The notes beneath the pieces are model-generated. The model was not told where the DNA came from and searched no databases. It worked only from the letters and a program-made list of their open reading frames with translations. Of a stretch of 41,517 nt of DNA, positions 2,278 to 41,039 are shown one piece after another. The translations under genes and the position numbers were made by a program. This stretch comes from a virus, in the IMG/VR virus record IMGVR_UViG_3300037882_003049, positions 1 to 41,517 of that record; one strand, written 5' to 3'. Every line of letters starts with the position of its first letter. Within the stretch, counting starts at the first letter, position 1.

Positions 2278-2508
2278 TTAATCTCCTAACAACGATTTTA
2301 AGTTTTTACGGCCCAAGAATGGGGTAGAAGTGTCGCCTTGTGGGCCGGTGATAAGCGTTTCGTTCTGTGCAGCGAGTGCAGCAGCGTTGGTTCGGGCTTC
2401 GCCCCCGCCGACGTAAGGCGATTTTGGGGCGTAGAATGATGGTGGTGGCGCTGCTGATTGTGGTGTTGAACGTTTCGGGCCACTGCCCATGCCGAATAAA
2501 TCTTGCAT
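2278..2508 (-). CDS. Small virion-type protein between TerL and portal, 76 aa
   Basis: The ATG at 2508 overlaps the TerL stop (GTGATG); a GTG one codon upstream is also possible. The protein is Pro/Ala/Gly-rich at the N-terminus (PKRSTPQSAAPPPSF) and ends in ETLITGPQGDTS ... GRKNLKSLLGD. That ending resembles a widespread group of small phage proteins with a TxLTGxxGLG ... KTLLG tail encoded next to portal or terminase genes. The role is unknown; a minor head protein is a guess from place alone. Confidence 0.75.
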   Translation of the reverse strand: MQDLFGMGSGPKRSTPQSAAPPPSFYAPKSPYVGGGEARTNAAALAAQNETLITGPQGDTSTPFLGRKNLKSLLGD

Positions 2509-4016
2509 CACATAACCTTTGCTAATGCTAATGGGTCGTAATCAGATGTAATGTTACTTTGCGTGCGACCTTCCCATAAATTTGATACCACAGGGTACGC
2601 AAAAGTCAATGCCAAAGCGTCGGCGATGTCGGGACTACCTTCCGACGAACGCGCTTTGATGTCGGCCTTGCTTTCAAGTTGGATACCGCCTTGTTTGTTG
2701 AAGTCATAATTGACGTTGATAAATTGTTGGAGCCACTCTTGGTTGTTCGGGATCGAGCCACGGCGCAACCATTCGAGCATCGCTCCCCACATTTCTGCCC
2801 GCTTGTTTGCGTATTTTACGCCGGCGGTTTCGTAGGCGGGACTGGAATTATCGCTTTTGCGCGCAAAGTTGATGTCGTGGACGGGCACGCCGAGGCGACG
2901 AAGGTTGTCGACAACGCCACCACCAACGCCTGTACCGTCGACAAAAACCGCTGATGCTTGAAGCGCGTTGTAGTTGTTTGCGACGTGCTCAGCGAGCGTG
3001 ACAGTGTCAATCCCACGGAAGATTAACGGAGGACGGGTTCGTGCGTCACGACCTTGCCGGAAGAAGATGACCGAATTGTCGTCGCCGAAGCGGGCAACGT
3101 CTACGCCTATGATGAGCGGATCGGTGTTGTAGAGTTCGGAAAGGGGACGGTTCATCGCGCCGACCACAGCATCGTTTGGAATAAATTGCATCGATGCGCT
3201 GCGTGGTGGCAAGCCGCGAACACGGGTACGGACGAAGTCGCTGTCCTCGCCGTAGTCTTCGACCCATTTGGCAATTTGCTTTTTATTACTGATTTTGACG
3301 GTGCGGCTGTCGATTGACCACGTTTTCCAGCGGTTTGAGAAACGGCCGAAGCATTCAGTGAAGCGGCCTGTGTTGCGCGTCATGTTGCCAAAAGCGCACC
3401 AGATGATTTCAGTGTCAGCGTCGGTAAGCGCACCTTCGGAAGTTTCCCATATAATGTCGGCGATGCTGGAGGCTTCGTCGAAGATAAGGACGATGCGCTT
3501 GCCTTTGTTGTGGAGACCGGCAAACGCTTCGGGATTTTCCTCGCTCCAAGGGATGAAATCCGCACGCCAAGTCATCGCGTGCTTTTCGTCGCGGCTGAAG
3601 CAAGCGGTGGCGGTGAGTTTGAACATGAAGTTGCCGATAAAGAGCCGGTACCATTTGGCGAACTCAGCACGGGTTTTGGTCTGAAGCTGGCCTTCGGTGT
3701 TGGCGGTGATGACGATTTTGGTATCTTCGTATGTGGCTAAGGCCCACATGATGATCCACGAAACGAGCGCGGATTTGCCCACACCATGCCCAGAAGCTGC
3801 GGCGATGAGGATTGCTTCATTCGGCGAGAGCAAGCCTTTGCCTAGGGCTTCGAGAATTTCCACTTGCCACTGGTCGGGGCCTTTTTCGTTGGCGAGTTCG
3901 CCGGCCGGCTCCGACCAAGGGAAGGAATAAAGGACAAAGCCCAAGGGGTTTTTGGCGAACCCCGCAAGGTCGATGATGATGCTTTCTTCAAGCGTCAGTT
4001 GTTTTTGGTGTAACAT
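2508..4016 (-). CDS. terL: Terminase large subunit
   Basis: This is the DNA-packaging motor: an ATPase that translocates DNA into the prohead and a nuclease that cuts it. At 502 residues it has the family length. Walker A is SGHGVGKS (about 75-82), Walker B is VLIFDEAS (about 176-183), and the C-terminal RNase H-like nuclease shows GVDVARFGDD (Asp306), VFVDGTGVGGG (Asp360) and SPDIADALAL (Asp463 and Asp467). The ATG lies inside the end of terS, so the two subunits are translationally coupled. Because the packaging type cannot be read from these motifs alone, cos, pac or terminal-repeat packaging remains open. Confidence 0.96.
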   Translation of the reverse strand: MLHQKQLTLEESIIIDLAGFAKNPLGFVLYSFPWSEPAGELANEKGPDQWQVEILEALGKGLLSPNEAILIAAASGHGVGKSALVSWIIMWALATYEDTKIVITANTEGQLQTKTRAEFAKWYRLFIGNFMFKLTATACFSRDEKHAMTWRADFIPWSEENPEAFAGLHNKGKRIVLIFDEASSIADIIWETSEGALTDADTEIIWCAFGNMTRNTGRFTECFGRFSNRWKTWSIDSRTVKISNKKQIAKWVEDYGEDSDFVRTRVRGLPPRSASMQFIPNDAVVGAMNRPLSELYNTDPLIIGVDVARFGDDNSVIFFRQGRDARTRPPLIFRGIDTVTLAEHVANNYNALQASAVFVDGTGVGGGVVDNLRRLGVPVHDINFARKSDNSSPAYETAGVKYANKRAEMWGAMLEWLRRGSIPNNQEWLQQFINVNYDFNKQGGIQLESKADIKARSSEGSPDIADALALTFAYPVVSNLWEGRTQSNITSDYDPLALAKVM

Positions 4017-4509
4017 CGATTATTTCTGCGGCGCGGTTGCGTGCTTCGGCAAGACGGTCGGCCATTCCGACGTGGATATTTAGGTTCGTCGTGGTTGATT
4101 TGGGGCCGTAGCCGGTGCGGTCGGCAAGACGGGAGAATGTTTCGAGGAGGAATGGTGTTGGTAGGTCTTCGTCATCGAGGCGTTCGTGGATTTCGTCGAG
4201 CACGTCCATTGCCACCACGCTCATTTTTTCGTGAAGGTCTCGGTGGATTTCCTGCACTTCGTTTTTGTACGATGCGACAAGTTCTTGGAAGGTTGGGTCG
4301 GACTGAAGGATGCTGATGCGGGAGTTGCTGTAGCCCGTCTGCGCCGCGACTTGGCCAGGGCGCTGGCCTTCGGCGAGAAGTCGTGCGACTTGATGGTGGC
4401 TGTGACGGATTTTGTTGATTGTAGGTGGCAAAACGGCTTTGGGCTTGTCTGATGCGGCAACATCGTGCGGGGTCAGTTCACGTAAAATGTCGATTTGAAG
4501 GTCGGTCAT
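3988..4509 (-). CDS. terS: Terminase small subunit-like DNA-binding protein
   Basis: This 173-residue protein is encoded just upstream of, and overlapping, terL. It has a helix-turn-helix segment around residues 38-68 (QVARLLAEGQRPGQVAAQTG, then YSNSRISILQSDPTF), followed by a long helical oligomerisation stretch and an acidic DDEDLPTPF link. That order is usual for TerS, which recognises phage DNA and hands it to TerL. The start is ATG 4509; no good Shine-Dalgarno is seen just upstream (CTTTTTCCC), which is unusual beside the strong sites elsewhere in this arm. A minus-strand promoter candidate and a hairpin lie in the 158 bases upstream. Confidence 0.85.
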   Translation of the reverse strand: MTDLQIDILRELTPHDVAASDKPKAVLPPTINKIRHSHHQVARLLAEGQRPGQVAAQTGYSNSRISILQSDPTFQELVASYKNEVQEIHRDLHEKMSVVAMDVLDEIHERLDDEDLPTPFLLETFSRLADRTGYGPKSTTTNLNIHVGMADRLAEARNRAAEIIDVTPKTTDA

Positions 4510-5173: not shown

Positions 5174-5186
5174 CAACCTAAGGTTG
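5174..5186. promoter_or_regulatory. Operator-like site, copy 1 (CAACCTAAGGTTG)
   Basis: Inverted hexamers CAACCT and AGGTTG are separated by one base. The identical 13-mer recurs at 5494-5506, 320 bp away, and a degenerate copy (AAACCTAACGTTG) lies near 5234. Two exact copies of a dyad in the divergent region suggest binding of a dimeric regulator. Confidence 0.5.
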
Positions 5187-5370: not shown

Positions 5371-5458
5371 GCCCATGATTTTGCCCAGCAAGCCCCGCTA
5401 GCCCACCGTTGCCCAATATCGCCCGTATTGCCCCCCACTTTTGCCCCGCTTTTGCCCC
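5371..5458. repeat. Phased GCCC iteron-like array (left half of dyad)
   Basis: GCCC begins at 5371, 5383, 5392, 5401, 5411, 5421, 5430, 5443 and 5454, close to one per helical turn. The three tracts nearest the centre (CCCC at 5455-5458, 5444-5447 and 5433-5436) are spaced by 11 bp. They mirror the GGGG tracts at 5607, 5618 and 5629 about a centre at 5532.5. The complementary strand could form a G-quadruplex with G3 to G4 tracts. Confidence 0.6.
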
Positions 5459-5473
5459 AATTTGCCAGTTTGA
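5455..5473. repeat. Left arm of perfect 19-bp inverted repeat
   Basis: CCCCAATTTGCCAGTTTGA is the exact reverse complement of 5592-5610. The 118-bp space between the arms is AT-rich and holds the T18 run, so the structure could extrude as a cruciform or serve as a symmetric protein-binding platform at an origin. Confidence 0.85.
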
Positions 5474-5493
5474 GAAAGAGGCGGTTAGTGATA

Positions 5494-5506
5494 CAACCTA
5501 AGGTTG
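5494..5506. promoter_or_regulatory. Operator-like site, copy 2 (CAACCTAAGGTTG)
   Basis: Identical to 5174-5186. This copy lies inside the 19-bp inverted-repeat spacer, just left of the T18 run. Confidence 0.5.
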
Positions 5507-5518
5507 AAATATAGAGAG

Positions 5519-5536
5519 TTTTTTTTTTTTTTTTTT
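5519..5536. repeat. Homopolymer T18 run
   Basis: Eighteen consecutive T on the plus strand at the centre of symmetry (5532.5) of the mirrored G/C tracts. This could act as an easily melted or rigid element. The exact length may be uncertain because homopolymers are error-prone. Confidence 0.7.
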
Positions 5537-5591
5537 ACATTAATAAAAAAGAACCATACCCATATTAAAAGCAACACACATGCCCACCTTG

Positions 5592-5610
5592 TCAAACTGG
5601 CAAATTGGGG
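5592..5610. repeat. Right arm of perfect 19-bp inverted repeat
   Basis: TCAAACTGGCAAATTGGGG pairs base for base with 5455-5473. Its last four G also form the first tract of the G-quadruplex motif. Confidence 0.85.
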
Positions 5611-5643
5611 AGCTATTGGGGCGCGATTGGGGGTATATCGGGG
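5607..5643 (+). other. Canonical G-quadruplex motif
   Basis: Four G tracts, 5607-5610, 5618-5621, 5629-5633 and 5640-5643, are separated by loops of 7, 7 and 6 bases, meeting the usual G4 rule with four-tier tracts. The 11-bp phasing also fits a protein-binding iteron array. It lies just upstream of the DnaA box and first early promoter. Confidence 0.6.
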
Positions 5644-5659
5644 CGAACTTCAGGCGAAC

Positions 5660-5668
5660 TTATCCACA
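5660..5668 (+). promoter_or_regulatory. Consensus DnaA box
   Basis: TTATCCACA matches the E. coli strong DnaA box exactly. It is followed at once by an AT-rich stretch that could be unwound. Two more copies occur inside coding sequence (15298 and 16962), so a single box is suggestive only in this context. Confidence 0.5.
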
Positions 5669-5707
5669 TATTTAATATATAAAAATATTAAAAATAATTA
5701 AAATAGG
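5669..5707. other. AT-rich stretch, candidate DNA unwinding element
   Basis: About 39 bases made almost only of A and T, with ATATTAAA-like motifs, lie between the DnaA box and the early promoter. With the box and the phased repeats this has the plan of a theta-type origin. Confidence 0.45.
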
Positions 5708-5738
5708 TATTGACAACCCCCACCAAGGGTGCTAAGGT
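5708..5738 (+). promoter_or_regulatory. Candidate early promoter P1
   Basis: A perfect TTGACA -35 (5710-5715), a 17-base spacer and a poor TAAGGT -10 (5733-5738); TTTATAC at 5738-5744 is a better -10 but too far. The GTATTGACA core is shared with P2 and P3. It reads into the first early gene at 5785. Confidence 0.5.
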
Positions 5739-11980: not shown

Positions 11981-12499
11981 ATGACACAAGAACAAACATT
12001 AATCACCACAACACTTAACAGAATACGCGCTCATTCTCCTTGTGAAGATGCGTGGGAAAAACTTTTAAAACATCTTGGCAAAACTAAAGCGGACGATGAG
12101 CCAATAAAGTTTAGCACAATCATAGAGAGCAACGGGCTTGACGATGCGCTGTGGTGTTTGCGTTCAATCTATCCTGAACATGATAAGGAAGTTCGCTTGT
12201 TTGCGGCTGATTGTGCAGAGCAAGTATTACACCTCTTTGAAGAAAAATACCCAAACGACAACCGCCCACGATTAGCGATTGAAGCGGCACGTAAATTTGC
12301 GAATGGTGAGATAACTCGTGAAGAATTGGATGCTGCGAGAGCTGCTGCATGGGATGCTGCATGGGCTGCTACGTGGGATGCTGCGAGAGCTTCTGCGAGA
12401 GCTTCTGCGTGGGCTGCTGCATGGGATGCTGCATGGGCTGCTACGTGGGATGCTGCATGGGCTGCTCAAACCAAAATGATGACAGAAAGGTTTTCGTGA
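11981..12499 (+). CDS. Imm5-like (putative immunity) protein with Trp-Asp-Ala repeats
   Basis: Residues about 25-120 (DALWCLRSIYPEHDKEVRLF, then CAEQVLHLFEEKYPNDNRPR, AIEAARKFANGEITREELDA) match the Imm5-like family often annotated as a putative immunity protein, also common in phages. The tail consists of repeats of AAWDAAWAATWDAA type, an alpha-helical array. At DNA level a perfect 44-bp unit occurs twice (12341-12384 and 12413-12456), so the array is likely to vary in length by recombination. The role in a phage is unknown. Confidence 0.75.
   Translation: MTQEQTLITTTLNRIRAHSPCEDAWEKLLKHLGKTKADDEPIKFSTIIESNGLDDALWCLRSIYPEHDKEVRLFAADCAEQVLHLFEEKYPNDNRPRLAIEAARKFANGEITREELDAARAAAWDAAWAATWDAARASARASAWAAAWDAAWAATWDAAWAAQTKMMTERFS
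12341..12456 (+). repeat. In-gene tandem repeat (two 44-bp perfect copies)
   Basis: 12341-12384 and 12413-12456 are identical and begin 72 bp apart, a multiple of three, so gain or loss keeps the frame. The bases between carry related GCTTCTGCGAGA units. Confidence 0.85.
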
Positions 12500-19973: not shown

Positions 19974-20171
19974 ATGCGCCGAATTATAAAACTTTCCCCT
20001 TACTACGTAACAGCGTTGATCTCACCAGCTTGCCTATGGTTGGCAATGTTGCTTTTAGTGTTAGACCCGATTTTGATGAAGTCGTTTTCGCAAATATTTT
20101 TAGTGATCGGCACAAGCACCATCCCGCTCACGATTTACTCATTCTACAAAATGGCAGAGAAAATTAAGTGA
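19974..20171 (+). CDS. Small two-helix membrane protein, 65 aa
   Basis: ATG 19974 with AGGAG nine bases ahead. Two hydrophobic segments: ALISPACLWLAMLLLVLD and FLVIGTSTIPLTIYSF. A basic start and end suggest both termini in the cytoplasm. It sits between replication genes and overlaps the polymerase start (GTGA). Function unknown. Confidence 0.68.
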   Translation: MRRIIKLSPYYVTALISPACLWLAMLLLVLDPILMKSFSQIFLVIGTSTIPLTIYSFYKMAEKIK

Positions 20172-21178
20172 TTGATATAGCAATAGTTGGCGAAGCTTGG
20201 GGCGAGCCGGAAGAACAACAACGTATGCCTTTCATGGGTGCCGCTGGGCGTGAACTCACGCGAATGCTTGAGGAAGCTGGTATCGAGCGGAACCGTTGTT
20301 TTCTTACAAACGTGTTTAACTTTCGCCCGAAACCTTCCAGCGACATTACAAATTTATGTGGTGGGAAAAAAGAAGGCATCGAAGGAAAAGCGCCGCTTAA
20401 ACCTGGCGCTTACGTTCTTAAACAGTACGAGAGTGAGTTGGTGCGGTTATACGACGAACTCGATACGGTAAAGCCAAACCTCGTCATCGCTCTCGGCAAT
20501 ACTGCAACTTGGGCATTGCTCGACAATTCGGGCATCAGTAAAATTCGTGGCACGGTCACGCAAACCATCATCAACGATCGTCCGCAGAAAGTGTTATGTA
20601 CCTACCACCCTGCCGCAGTCTTGCGTGATTGGAGCTTACGGCCTGTCACAGTCCTCGATTTTTGCAAAGCCGAACGTGAAAGCAAACGCCCTGAGATCGT
20701 GCGTCCCACACGTACAATCATAATCGACCCGACACTCGACGAAATCGAAGCCTTCTACAACGAACACCTTGTCCGCGCCGAAATGATTTCCTTCGACATC
20801 GAAACCCGAAACGACCAGATAACTTGTGTGGGATTTGCGCCAAACGATAAAATTGCGCTCGTCATCCCTTTCTACGACAACAGAAAACACGGCAACCATT
20901 TTTGGCCAACACTCAACGACGAACTTAAAGCGTGGTATTGGGTACGAAAAATTCTAACCCTCCCCGCAATGAAACTTGCGCAGAACGGTCAGTACGATTT
21001 ATTCTTCCTGTGGTACCAGTACCGTATCCATGTTGAAAACTTCGCGCACGACACAATGCTTTTACACCACGCGCTGCATCCTGAAAGCGATAAAGGTTTA
21101 GGTTTTCTCGGATCGGTCTACACCAACGAAGCCGCTTGGAAAATCATGCGGTCAAAAACAATTAAACGTGATGCTTAG
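20168..21178 (+). CDS. DNA polymerase, part 1: UDG-like domain and first half of 3'-5' exonuclease
   Basis: The GTG at 20168 overlaps the upstream stop. Residues 1-160 match family-4-like uracil-DNA glycosylase (VGEAWGEPEEQ, TNVFNFRP, VIALGNTATW, TYHPAAVLR), without the Fe-S cysteines. Residues 205-336 begin a DnaQ-like exonuclease: SFDIETR (Asp210 and Glu212, motif I) and AQNGQYDLFF (motif II), then HDTMLLHHALHPESDKGL. Motif III is missing here and is found in the next gene (YNGLDC). The TAG at 21176-21178 is in frame with part 2, nine bases away. Such UDG-exo-PolA fusions are single proteins in related phages, so this one has been cut. Confidence 0.88.
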   Translation: MIDIAIVGEAWGEPEEQQRMPFMGAAGRELTRMLEEAGIERNRCFLTNVFNFRPKPSSDITNLCGGKKEGIEGKAPLKPGAYVLKQYESELVRLYDELDTVKPNLVIALGNTATWALLDNSGISKIRGTVTQTIINDRPQKVLCTYHPAAVLRDWSLRPVTVLDFCKAERESKRPEIVRPTRTIIIDPTLDEIEAFYNEHLVRAEMISFDIETRNDQITCVGFAPNDKIALVIPFYDNRKHGNHFWPTLNDELKAWYWVRKILTLPAMKLAQNGQYDLFFLWYQYRIHVENFAHDTMLLHHALHPESDKGLGFLGSVYTNEAAWKIMRSKTIKRDA

Positions 21179-21187
21179 GGGAAACAA

Positions 21188-22729
21188 ATGGAAATCAATA
21201 CAAGTGATGATGCGGCGCTTCGTGGGTTACGCTCGAAAGCAGAACAGTTGTACGTTTACAACGGGCTTGATTGCTGTCTAACGTTTGAAGTTTTTAACGT
21301 CATCAGTAAACAACTCGACGCTTGCACGTCAAAGACGTATGATTTTTCCCGCGCACTCCAAGCACCCTGCTTTGAAATGAAATTACGTGGCGTTGCGATC
21401 GACCTCACCGAACGTGATCGTGCGATTAAAGCTCTAACGCAGGACATAAAAAAGCTGGAGAAAATCCTTGAGCGATTTCTTCGTGAGGGTGTGGGCACCG
21501 AAATCAATTGGCGTAGCCCAGCACAGTTGAAAGACTTATTCTACACACAGATGAGATACAAAACGATTAAAAAGCGGAATTCAAAAGGCGAATTCACCGC
21601 TACAGTTAATCGGGAAGCGTTGGAAAAACTAGCTTTCCACTTTTACCTGCAACCCATCATCAGTACCTTACTGCTTATGCGTGACATTGATAAGATGATC
21701 GGCCGCCTCCGCACCGACATCGACAAAGATCGTCGTATGCGCTCATCGTATAACGTGGCGGGCACCAATACAGGCCGCCTTTCATCATCCTTCGGCGACT
21801 TCAACACAGGCACCAACCTGCAAAACATCGACGAGCGGATACGAAGGATTTTCGTATCTGGTCCCGGTATGAAACTTGCCTACAGCGATCTTGCTCAAGC
21901 TGAAAGTCGCCTGGTGGGTGCAATCATCTACAACACTTTCGACGATGCGACTTATCTCGATGCGTGCGAGAGTAAAGACCTCCATACCACGGTATGTATG
22001 TTTGCGTGGCCTGAACTTGCATGGACGGATGACATTCGCGCCAACCGCCACATCGCTGACCAAGATTACATTCCCGGCTACGCCTACCGACAATTGGCGA
22101 AAATTCTCGGTCACGGTTCCAACTACGGTGGCAAGCCCTCAACGTTGAGCAAACAAACCGGTATCCCGCAAACACAAGTGGCCGAATTCCAGCGCCGTTA
22201 CTTCACCGCCTTCCCCGCAATCGCACGTTGGCACGGTCACGTTGCGAACGAACTTTTCACTAAAGGCTACCTCATCAGCCTCACGGGTCGACGACGATAC
22301 TTTTTCGGCCGACGTGATGACGACACAACCCTGCGTGCCGCAATCGCTTTCGATCCACAAGGTTCCGTTGGGGATATTCTCAACACAGGAATGCTTAGAG
22401 TGTGGCGTGCGAACATTTGTCAGTTGCTAATGCAAATCCACGATGCCATCATGGTGCAATACCCAGAACATCTCGAAGACCAAATCGTTCCTCAAATCCT
22501 TCAACAACTCCAAGTACCCATACCATTAAAAAATAATCGAATGTTGCTGCTTCCAGCGGATGTGAAAACTGGTTGGAATTGGCAAGAACAAGATAGCTAT
22601 CACAAAGATGGCACCGCGAAAAAAGCTGAGGAAATGAAAAATGGCGATGGGCTTAAAAAATACAGTGGAAACGACAACCGGACACGCACCTCGACCGCGC
22701 CAGTTTCCTTCTTGGATCGCCGCTTTTGA
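21188..22729 (+). CDS. DNA polymerase, part 2: exonuclease motif III and family A polymerase
   Basis: Starts at ATG 21188 with AGGGGAAACAA ahead, a credible ribosome site. YVYNGLDCC (about 22-30) is exonuclease motif III. Polymerase motifs follow: TNTGRLSSSFGDFN and LQNID, motif A YSDLAQAESR (Asp234), motif B RQLAKILGHGSNYGG (301-315) and motif C MQIHDAIM (Asp419). In motif C the usual HDE reads HDA; HDS or HDA is seen in phage relatives of this branch. It is in the same frame as part 1, so readthrough would give about 853 residues. The last 89 bases overlap the next gene. Confidence 0.93.
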   Translation: MEINTSDDAALRGLRSKAEQLYVYNGLDCCLTFEVFNVISKQLDACTSKTYDFSRALQAPCFEMKLRGVAIDLTERDRAIKALTQDIKKLEKILERFLREGVGTEINWRSPAQLKDLFYTQMRYKTIKKRNSKGEFTATVNREALEKLAFHFYLQPIISTLLLMRDIDKMIGRLRTDIDKDRRMRSSYNVAGTNTGRLSSSFGDFNTGTNLQNIDERIRRIFVSGPGMKLAYSDLAQAESRLVGAIIYNTFDDATYLDACESKDLHTTVCMFAWPELAWTDDIRANRHIADQDYIPGYAYRQLAKILGHGSNYGGKPSTLSKQTGIPQTQVAEFQRRYFTAFPAIARWHGHVANELFTKGYLISLTGRRRYFFGRRDDDTTLRAAIAFDPQGSVGDILNTGMLRVWRANICQLLMQIHDAIMVQYPEHLEDQIVPQILQQLQVPIPLKNNRMLLLPADVKTGWNWQEQDSYHKDGTAKKAEEMKNGDGLKKYSGNDNRTRTSTAPVSFLDRRF

Positions 22730-23909
22730 GGAATTCACACAAATCCTCGATAGCCCCCAGATTTTTAAACGCTGGGGTGCAATCGCTGCGATAGCTGCCG
22801 CGCTTGAGCAGAAGGTGTGGGTTTTGTCGAAAGGGGCACAACTCTTTCCGAATATGTATATGTCGCTGGTGGCACCTCCCGGCGTTGGTAAGTCGTCAGT
22901 GCTCTCCCAAGTTGAGAAATTGCTCAAGCAACTGCCGAACCCGCTTGTAGCCCCGTCCAACGTAACCACCGCCTCCCTGTTCGATAGCCTTGTAGAGAGC
23001 ACCCGAAAAATTGTGCGCCCCACCGCTATCCAGCCCGTCACGCAGTATAATTACATGACTGCAGTGGCTTCGGAACTTGGCGTGTTTTTGCCCACGTACG
23101 ATCCAAGTTTCATGAACGCGCTCACCAAACTTTACGACCGTGAACCCTACGAAGAACGCCGCAGGGGGAACAAACATCACTTGAAAATTGATAACCCATC
23201 AATTTCTGTGATAGGTGGGACAACCCCTTCCTACCTCAACAGCTTTTTTCCTGAGGGCGGTTGGGATCAAGGTTTCGCTTCCCGCCTCATCCTTATTTAC
23301 TCCGAGGAACAACAAACCTCATCGTTGTTCCACGTGAAACAGGAAGCGCCCGCCGACCTTTGGGATAATCTCCTATCCGACCTAACAATCATGTCGGAGC
23401 TTTACGGTCAGTTTAGTTGGTCGCCTGACGCAATGGCCGCTGTCGATAAATGGCACACAACAGGCCGCACACCTGAACCAACCCACAACAAATTACGCCA
23501 CTACAACACACGCCGAACCCTCCACCTACTCAAGCTGATGCAAGTTGCTTGCGTAAACCGTGGCAACACTCTCACAATGGAAATTGATGATTTCAATGAA
23601 GCCCTTGAATGGTTGCTCGAAGCTGAAATTTTCATGCCCGACATCTTCAAGGCAATGGCCTCAGGCGGAGACAGCCAAGCGATCGAGGACACATGGCACT
23701 GGGCTTGGTCTATCTTCGCGAAACGTGGCTCTAAACCCCTCCCCGAGCACGAATACGTACAATTCCTTCAGCAACGTGTGCCGGCCCATTCGGTGATGCG
23801 AATTTTGGAAACAATGGAGCGGTCTAATTATTTGGTTCTTGCTGGGTATGGTGAGAAAGGCCGCCCTCTTTACAAACCTACGCCGAAAGCATCCCAGCTT
23901 ATCGTTTAA
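22641..23909 (+). CDS. DUF3987-like AAA ATPase, probable replicative helicase
   Basis: 422 residues. The N-terminal ATPase has Walker A APPGVGKSS (about 78-86), then SNVTTASLFDSLVES and an ELGVFLPTY element, all typical of DUF3987-type phage helicase-like proteins. The C-terminal half is helical with a likely winged-helix end. It would be the replicative helicase or loader, the primase part being absent or host-supplied. ATG 22641 has GAGGA ahead and lies inside the polymerase end. It closes the plus arm and its stop overlaps that of the converging minus-strand gene. Confidence 0.8.
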   Translation: MAMGLKNTVETTTGHAPRPRQFPSWIAAFEEFTQILDSPQIFKRWGAIAAIAAALEQKVWVLSKGAQLFPNMYMSLVAPPGVGKSSVLSQVEKLLKQLPNPLVAPSNVTTASLFDSLVESTRKIVRPTAIQPVTQYNYMTAVASELGVFLPTYDPSFMNALTKLYDREPYEERRRGNKHHLKIDNPSISVIGGTTPSYLNSFFPEGGWDQGFASRLILIYSEEQQTSSLFHVKQEAPADLWDNLLSDLTIMSELYGQFSWSPDAMAAVDKWHTTGRTPEPTHNKLRHYNTRRTLHLLKLMQVACVNRGNTLTMEIDDFNEALEWLLEAEIFMPDIFKAMASGGDSQAIEDTWHWAWSIFAKRGSKPLPEHEYVQFLQQRVPAHSVMRILETMERSNYLVLAGYGEKGRPLYKPTPKASQLIV

Positions 23910-40001: not shown

Positions 40002-41039
40002 TTAAATTACACGGGCTTCGGTATTCAAGATCGCATCAACAGTGCGAACAGGGATACCACGGAAAGTGGTCACTGGTTTGCCGTTGAATTGGTCAAGCTG
40101 CAAGAGCACGTTAGTTTTGTTCGTCGCTTGAATGTCCAAGAACGAGCGGATTGTGCGGTTGCAGTAGATTGCAGTGCTGCCCGCACCTGGGAGAACGTTT
40201 TGGTCAGAACCTTGGAACGCTGTTGCGCCCACTGGTGCTGTCGGTAAACGACCAAGACCGCGGATGATTGCGGAGATGAGGTTTGCCGCTGAGCCTGTGT
40301 TGAGATCAGAAACGTCGATGTTTGAGATACGCACAACGTAGCGCCAATCTTCGATCGCCATACCGCAATGCCATTGGTAGTTGTCTACGTAAGCATAGTA
40401 TGGGTTGCCATCCGTGTCGTAAACGCGGATTTCGCCTTTGTCAGAATGCATCAAACCTGTCGGCATTCCTTTTGGGAAAATACCATGCACAGTTTGAGGA
40501 CCCCAACCAACGATGTAGATTGAGCTGTTGTCGGAACCGGTACCACCAGCATCGATAACGTTTGCCGCAAGTTGCGTTGTGGCAGTGTTTACGCTGTTGT
40601 AACGTGTCGCGAGACCGTTGAATGCTAATGGGTTCGTTCCGGCGTTGCCGTAGATAACCAATGAAGCAAGCTGTTGTGTGAGCGATTGCAAGAAACCAGA
40701 TGTTTGTGACAAACGGTACTGCATCGTGTTGCCGTTGAGGTTCGCAAGACGAACGTCAACTTGGCTTTCACCAACGATTTGCGAGCAAGTTTCAACAACT
40801 TCAGCACCAGTCGATTTTGACATCGCGGTACCTTTGTTGATCTGCCCCAACGAAACAGTTGGGAGAGACGTGCGAACAACGAATTTGTGCCCTGTTGGGA
40901 GGTTGCCCTCTTTCCAAAGCATATCATCGATAATTTCGTTTGATTGACTTAGCAATTCTACGATGGCGGTGTTTTTATCGTCGCCAGCAAGTTTTGCCCA
41001 ATCAATTAGTGTAGATACACCACTGCCAATAACGGCCAT
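40002..41039 (-). CDS. Major capsid protein, GP7/Bbp17-like
   Basis: 345 residues. TLIDWAKLAGDDKNTAIVEL, LLSQSNEIIDDMLWKEGNLP and TGHKFVVRTSLPTV at the N-terminus, then NGNTMQYRLSQTSGFLQSLT and the GVATA-type P-domain, are typical of the epsilon15 GP7/BPP-1 major capsid family, an HK97-fold lattice protein. The C-terminus ends KPVTTFRGIPVRTVDAILNT. No protease cut site was looked for. AAAGGA lies before ATG 41039. It follows the scaffold and leads the cement gene. Confidence 0.93.
   Translation of the reverse strand: MAVIGSGVSTLIDWAKLAGDDKNTAIVELLSQSNEIIDDMLWKEGNLPTGHKFVVRTSLPTVSLGQINKGTAMSKSTGAEVVETCSQIVGESQVDVRLANLNGNTMQYRLSQTSGFLQSLTQQLASLVIYGNAGTNPLAFNGLATRYNSVNTATTQLAANVIDAGGTGSDNSSIYIVGWGPQTVHGIFPKGMPTGLMHSDKGEIRVYDTDGNPYYAYVDNYQWHCGMAIEDWRYVVRISNIDVSDLNTGSAANLISAIIRGLGRLPTAPVGATAFQGSDQNVLPGAGSTAIYCNRTIRSFLDIQATNKTNVLLQLDQFNGKPVTTFRGIPVRTVDAILNTEARVI

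Follow-up and report, generated by a model that had tools for sequence, protein, structure and literature searches.

In the core origin of simian virus 40 (SV40) and in oriS of herpes simplex virus (HSV), inverted initiator boxes surround an A/T core and accommodate two opposed initiator assemblies, which are hexameric rings of T-antigen in the case of SV40. Other organizations are found in mobile elements. In the origins of phage-inducible chromosomal islands and Staphylococcus aureus pathogenicity islands (PICI/SaPI; pri-rep-ori arrangement), an AT-rich region, presumed to melt, is always found between two sets of iterons (PMC6092414), and the initiator doubles as helicase. In the Cch2/CCPol-MP system of the staphylococcal cassette chromosome mec (SCCmec), the MCM-like helicase Cch2 binds through its C-terminal domain the short repeats, or iterons, of an intergenic putative origin and works with a family-A polymerase (PMC7581432). 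Here, we describe a mirrored repeat element, called the dyad below, at positions 5371-5707 of the 41.5-kb virus record IMGVR_UViG_3300037882_003049 (referred to as W; the window is this whole stretch of 41,517 nucleotides). Its plan is shared by relatives of W gathered by protein searches, and it is probably the replication origin of this phage lineage, flanked by iterons and served by an AAA+ helicase-initiator.

The element is non-coding and consists of two mirror-image sets of short repeats on either side of a T18 run. As an earlier note on this DNA had reported, CCCCAATTTGCCAGTTTGA at 5455-5473 is followed by its exact reverse complement at 5592-5610, giving perfect 19-bp arms, and the C and G tracts are symmetric about 5532.5, inside T18. 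The C-tracts 5431-5436, 5444-5447, and 5455-5458 mirror the G-tracts 5629-5633, 5618-5621, and 5607-5610, respectively, and an additional, fourth GGGG stands at 5640. When mismatches were allowed in the repeat search, the arms grew to the long imperfect dyad of Table 1. In a scan of every possible centre, the dyad ranked first in the record, with a score of 23.4 against 15.2 for the runner-up. None of 100 whole-genome dinucleotide shuffles and none of 2000 local shuffles of the arms matched this score, the maximum being 17.8 in both cases. From base composition, 1.7e-6 T18 runs are expected in W. GCCC pairs spaced by 11, 22, or 33 bp exceed those in shuffles (p 0.0002, for a motif picked after being seen). 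The mirrored G/C tracts are the version of helically phased repeats found in this phage. The arrays (5371-5458 and 5607-5643) enclose a centre of 69% AT that contains T18, and the AT stretch previously pointed out to the right of the element was recovered (5660-5710, 90% AT). The whole lies in a divergent gap, from which late genes are read leftward and early genes rightward from about 5710.

The earlier note had suggested searching related phages for the dyad and stated that relatives with the same gene order and no trace of it would refute its reading; such relatives do carry it, with a central tract. In these phages, a long inverted repeat, often built of 10-11-bp-phased repeats, is centred on a simple tract in the same divergent early/late gap. 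The plan was found in Caulobacter phage Kuura and other named phages, as well as in dozens of viral contigs. The tract is usually T9-T24, sometimes G10, G13, or (TA)n. For instance, A13 is accompanied by 77-bp arms in L004, A12 by 69-bp arms in L006, A11 by 55-bp arms in L058, and T11 by 38-bp arms in L085 and L091, and the tract is T12 in Kuura, a 17-base run in a Desulfofustis phage, and T9 in MW202489 and Mel-JY34. Among 32 records reached via the DUF3987 protein (see below) or the helicase, a T10 run, where present, coincides or nearly coincides with the centre of the highest-scoring dyad of the stretch. An A/T run of at least 9 is present in 21 records, and in 16 of them it is no more than 40 bp away from the top dyad, for 0.07 expected; 939 kb of sequence surrounding the DUF3987 genes in relatives contain no such run. 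In complete records devoid of a T-run, a single dyad still stands out, and its centre is (TA)n, G13, G10, or a short T/A tract. Upstream of 80 homologues of the small terminase subunit (TerS), the dyad is again present in most of those with sufficient sequence, with scores up to 62.8. In unbiased dyad scans, it is the top of the sequence in 26 of 29 dyad phages, and it exceeds the shuffle maximum in 22 of them.

What is conserved among the dyad phages is a plan and not a sequence. Symmetry, central simple tract, and position are kept, always in non-coding DNA at or near the early/late gap, and the repeat letters vary (TTGCCCC in W, TCCCTCA in G024, GGGCAGT in Kuura, CCCCGATT in G031). The arms measure 60-120 bp at their most extended, and their inner ends are as much as 136 bp away from the centre; in many of these phages, the repeats are spaced by 10-11 and 20-22 bp. 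In most of them, not in all, the T run is on the early strand. G13 or G10 replaces T at the centre in G019 (L230-L232; dyad at contig position 41016) and in G021 (L233; dyad at 331), so that the centre need not be AT-rich. Paired adjacent homopolymers occupy the gap in G046 (T28 and G18; L378, 3469-3525) and in G061 (G12 and A20; L380, 3717-3759). The tract coincides with, or lies close to, a contig end in G022, G046, G061, and G069, an indication that it varies in length or interrupts assembly. In vir526, to which a Methanomicrobiales host is assigned (L100, 384-783), the same replication module is accompanied by a strong dyad with 69-bp arms and no long tract.

The dyad co-occurs with replication genes. 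Nearly all dyad phages complete enough to be checked have a family-A polymerase and the DUF3987 'primase'. Both genes are found in 27 of the 27 complete or near-complete genomes with the module, and these genomes span at least two unrelated modules of large terminase subunit (TerL) and portal genes. Conversely, G041, the one genome that has structural genes like those of W without the replication module, shows no dyad. DUF3987 has previously been predicted to be a helicase family of primase-linked mobile elements (PMC5862659). An alignment of 43 DUF3987 sequences (A3) underlies the structure predicted here with AlphaFold (mean predicted local distance difference test score, pLDDT, 90.9). The best matches of the model among solved structures, using Foldseek, are MCM helicases (E ~1e-11, TM-score ~0.45-0.49), and the sequence profile reaches the winged helix of MCM5 (E 0.008). 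No primase domain was found in the DUF3987 protein of W, the name given in PHROGs notwithstanding. The model suggests that this 'primase' is an AAA+ helicase of MCM-like fold, its C-terminal part forming a winged helix; the PHROGs name 'DNA primase' for phrog_14296 is probably wrong. W would then possess an AAA+ initiator-helicase with a predicted C-terminal domain binding double-stranded DNA (dsDNA), as an origin of the PICI/SaPI type requires.

An origin is the best reading of the dyad because relatives with the same gene order carry it and because it travels with a shared replication module. The plan outlasts changes in repeat letters and in the base of the tract, which may be T, G, or (TA)n; co-evolution of an initiator with its iterons would be expected to lead to such a pattern. 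By analogy with the PICI origins and with SCCmec Cch2, the following mechanism may be envisaged. The two facing arrays, whose 10-11-bp steps would place the short repeats on one face of the helix, would be bound by a phage initiator. This initiator would most likely be the DUF3987 AAA+ protein, acting through its C-terminal winged helix and possibly with a partner. Each side would load one ring helicase, the two rings facing each other, and the tract between the arrays (T18 in W) would melt. Family-A polymerase forks would then depart both ways, with early and late transcription diverging from the same point. It may also be imagined, although we regard it as rather doubtful, that the dyad is the phage equivalent of origins at which archaea and eukaryotes load two rings. 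In such a model, two MCM-like rings of DUF3987 protein would be placed head to head on a homopolymer tract by the mirror arrays, and, across a large phage lineage, initiator and repeats would change together under a constant mirror plan.

The comparison with described systems shows both likenesses and differences. As in PICI/SaPI, two iteron sets would surround a melting region. In W and its relatives, however, the arrays face each other as one long helically phased dyad, the core is a homopolymer or (TA)n, and the carrier is a phage of ~40-58 kb and not a satellite. With SCCmec, the dyad phages share the joint presence of a family-A polymerase and of an MCM-like AAA+ helicase with a C-terminal dsDNA-binding domain, the latter being predicted here; they differ in the helicase family, DUF3987, and in that the SCCmec genes are adjacent. 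Inverted boxes around a core recall SV40 and HSV oriS, but no relative of T-antigen or UL9 was seen in the dyad phages, the core is T, G, or (TA)n, and the arrays are far longer. No phage origin with such a plan is described in the papers searched. The element itself is also undescribed for these phages in the literature searched, which included few subscription papers, so that an earlier description is possible. An origin of an undescribed plan, as proposed in the earlier note, is the best reading, but 'new type' overstates it, given that an AT-rich region between two iteron sets is known from PICI/SaPI origins (PMC6092414).

Several observations weigh against origin function. GC skew does not point to 5530, around which the earlier note had proposed to examine it: in W it turns at ~13.8 and 32.1 kb, not at 5.5 kb. 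Among relatives it is inconsistent, with extremes at the dyad in Kuura, MelJY34, and VSABTNL3, of opposite signs. The mapped virion end of Kuura falls within its dyad. The DUF3987 gene is ~13-24 kb away from the dyad, whereas the PICI/SaPI origin lies directly downstream of rep. A co-evolution comparison of the repeats with the winged helix or with the helix-turn-helix (HTH) of TerS gave no resolution, the phages being too diverged. Finally, the link between dyad and module is strong but not absolute, since Tiera and EBPR3 (partial) have the polymerase and DUF3987 genes and no clear dyad, and PaP2 has the module with a weak dyad only. If the dyad is an origin, it provides a sequence-searchable candidate for a broad and nearly unstudied lineage, from Caulobacter and Microcystis phages to a putative Methanomicrobiales virus, in which the plan would be retained while letters and core tract (T, G, or TA) turn over. 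It also opens the question of whether a mirror-array origin loads two MCM-like rings in bacteria.

A packaging or terminus site is the main rival explanation, because the terminal repeat of Kuura starts in its dyad and the TerS gene is usually close by. The model would be the packaging site of phage SPP1, with its layout pacL-pacC-pacR. TerS would bind the two phased arrays and the concatemer would be cut between or beside them, or else the inverted repeat would help to duplicate a direct terminal repeat (DTR). Kuura has a 606-bp DTR mapped with PhageTerm (PMC9959647). We verified the exact repeat, and its boundary at 43208 is inside the dyad, 61 bp from the centre at 43147. The W-type TerS gene, the product of which has an HTH-like N-terminus, typically lies 0.5-2.6 kb from the dyad. 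The nearness of TerS and the mapped terminus inside the Kuura dyad recall SPP1 pac and T7-like DTR termini. The large TerS-positive records do not help to decide, since all but two of them (33-35 kb, possibly partial) also have the replication module, making TerS and module inseparable there. The dyad could be a packaging site, or double as one; were packaging its role in place of replication, a new terminus signal would emerge from these data. We nevertheless consider a packaging site unlikely. The dyad is kept across different TerL/portal modules, it is present in MelJY34, VSABTNL3, MW202489, and vir526, where a W-type TerS is undetectable, and its distance to TerS reaches ~9 kb in G028 and ~6 kb in VSABTNL3. 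In addition, the mapped ends come from one phage only, Kuura, and an asymmetric cut needs no mirror symmetry around a simple tract.

The arrays might also serve as operators through which a regulator switches the divergent early and late promoters, the T-tract acting as a bend or an insulator. The constant non-coding location at or near the divergent gap fits with this idea, as do, in W, a promoter-like TTGACA at ~5711 and a palindromic candidate operator in two copies. On the other hand, such long mirrored arrays exceed the needs of an operator, they are symmetric about a simple tract and not about promoters, and no regulator gene common to all dyad phages was found; transcription control therefore appears improbable. 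As for G-quadruplexes (G4), which the earlier note had recognized on both strands, W does have mirrored G3/G4 motifs, and so do a few relatives. In a G4/R-loop origin, opposite-strand G4s flanking the T-run would stall or prime polymerases. However, a G3-type mirrored motif occurs in only a few of the 29 dyad phages, and in many of them neither strand has one, whereas the symmetry and the tract are retained. A G4 origin as a general mechanism is thus rejected as largely refuted, and we give it very little credence. The DnaA box of the earlier note is a true match, TTATCCACA, but a match near the dyad was found in one of the 29 phages only, W itself, where the same 9-mer recurs at three other sites. 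A conserved, oriC-like and DnaA-dependent origin part is rejected.

The features of the dyad and the genes discussed above are collected in Table 1.

Table 1. Coordinates in W of the dyad components and of the genes considered in relation to them.
Feature	Position	Strand	Remarks
Left repeat array	5371-5458	+	GCCC starts at 5371, 5383, 5392, 5401, 5411, 5421, 5430, 5443, 5454; mean spacing ~10.4 bp; lag-11 periodicity; mirrors right array
Left arm of long imperfect dyad	5419-5481		63 nt, 71% complementary to 5584-5646; perfect core 5455-5473
Palindrome CAACCTAAGGTTG	5494-5506		Second copy at 5174-5186; possible operator
T18 tract	5519-5536	+	Contains dyad centre 5532.5; proposed melting or helicase-loading zone; tract position conserved in relatives
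Right arm of dyad	5584-5646		GGGG at 5607, 5618, 5629, 5640 (exact 11-bp steps); perfect core 5592-5610
DnaA-box match TTATCCACA	5660-5668	+	Not conserved in relatives; probably incidental
AT-rich stretch	5669-5710		Precedes early promoter region (TTGACA at ~5711)
DUF3987 / phrog_14296 'primase'	22641-23909	+	Predicted MCM-like AAA+ helicase, C-terminal winged helix; candidate initiator-helicase for dyad
Family-A DNA polymerase domain protein	21188-22729	+	Found alongside dyad
N-terminal part of split polymerase system	20168-21178	+	Matches phrog_17; N-terminal uracil-DNA-glycosylase (UDG)-superfamily domain (Pfam)
TerS	3988-4509	-	By position and family; weak N-terminal HTH match; 1.0 kb from dyad; candidate binder under packaging explanation

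The palindrome CAACCTAAGGTTG occurs exactly twice in the W genome, once within the dyad and once 320 bp upstream, and is possibly the operator of a phage regulator. At the DNA level, the dyad region of W has no match in known phages, and a search with the single TerS protein of W alone gave no matches. T7-type RNA polymerase (PF00940) had no match in W, but none in control genomes either.

The ends of the W record overlap by 99 bases. Leftward from the gap, the late genes include TerS, TerL (2508-4016), and portal (609-2276). Rightward, the early genes encode a UvrD-like helicase, an exonuclease, a Sak4-like ATPase, the split family-A polymerase, and the DUF3987 protein. The splitting of the polymerase into an N-terminal part and a separate family-A gene is also observed in many relatives. 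Another early gene (11981-12499), belonging to phrog_18326, matches an Imm5-like immunity family (PF21805, E 8e-14) and has a relative in vir526.
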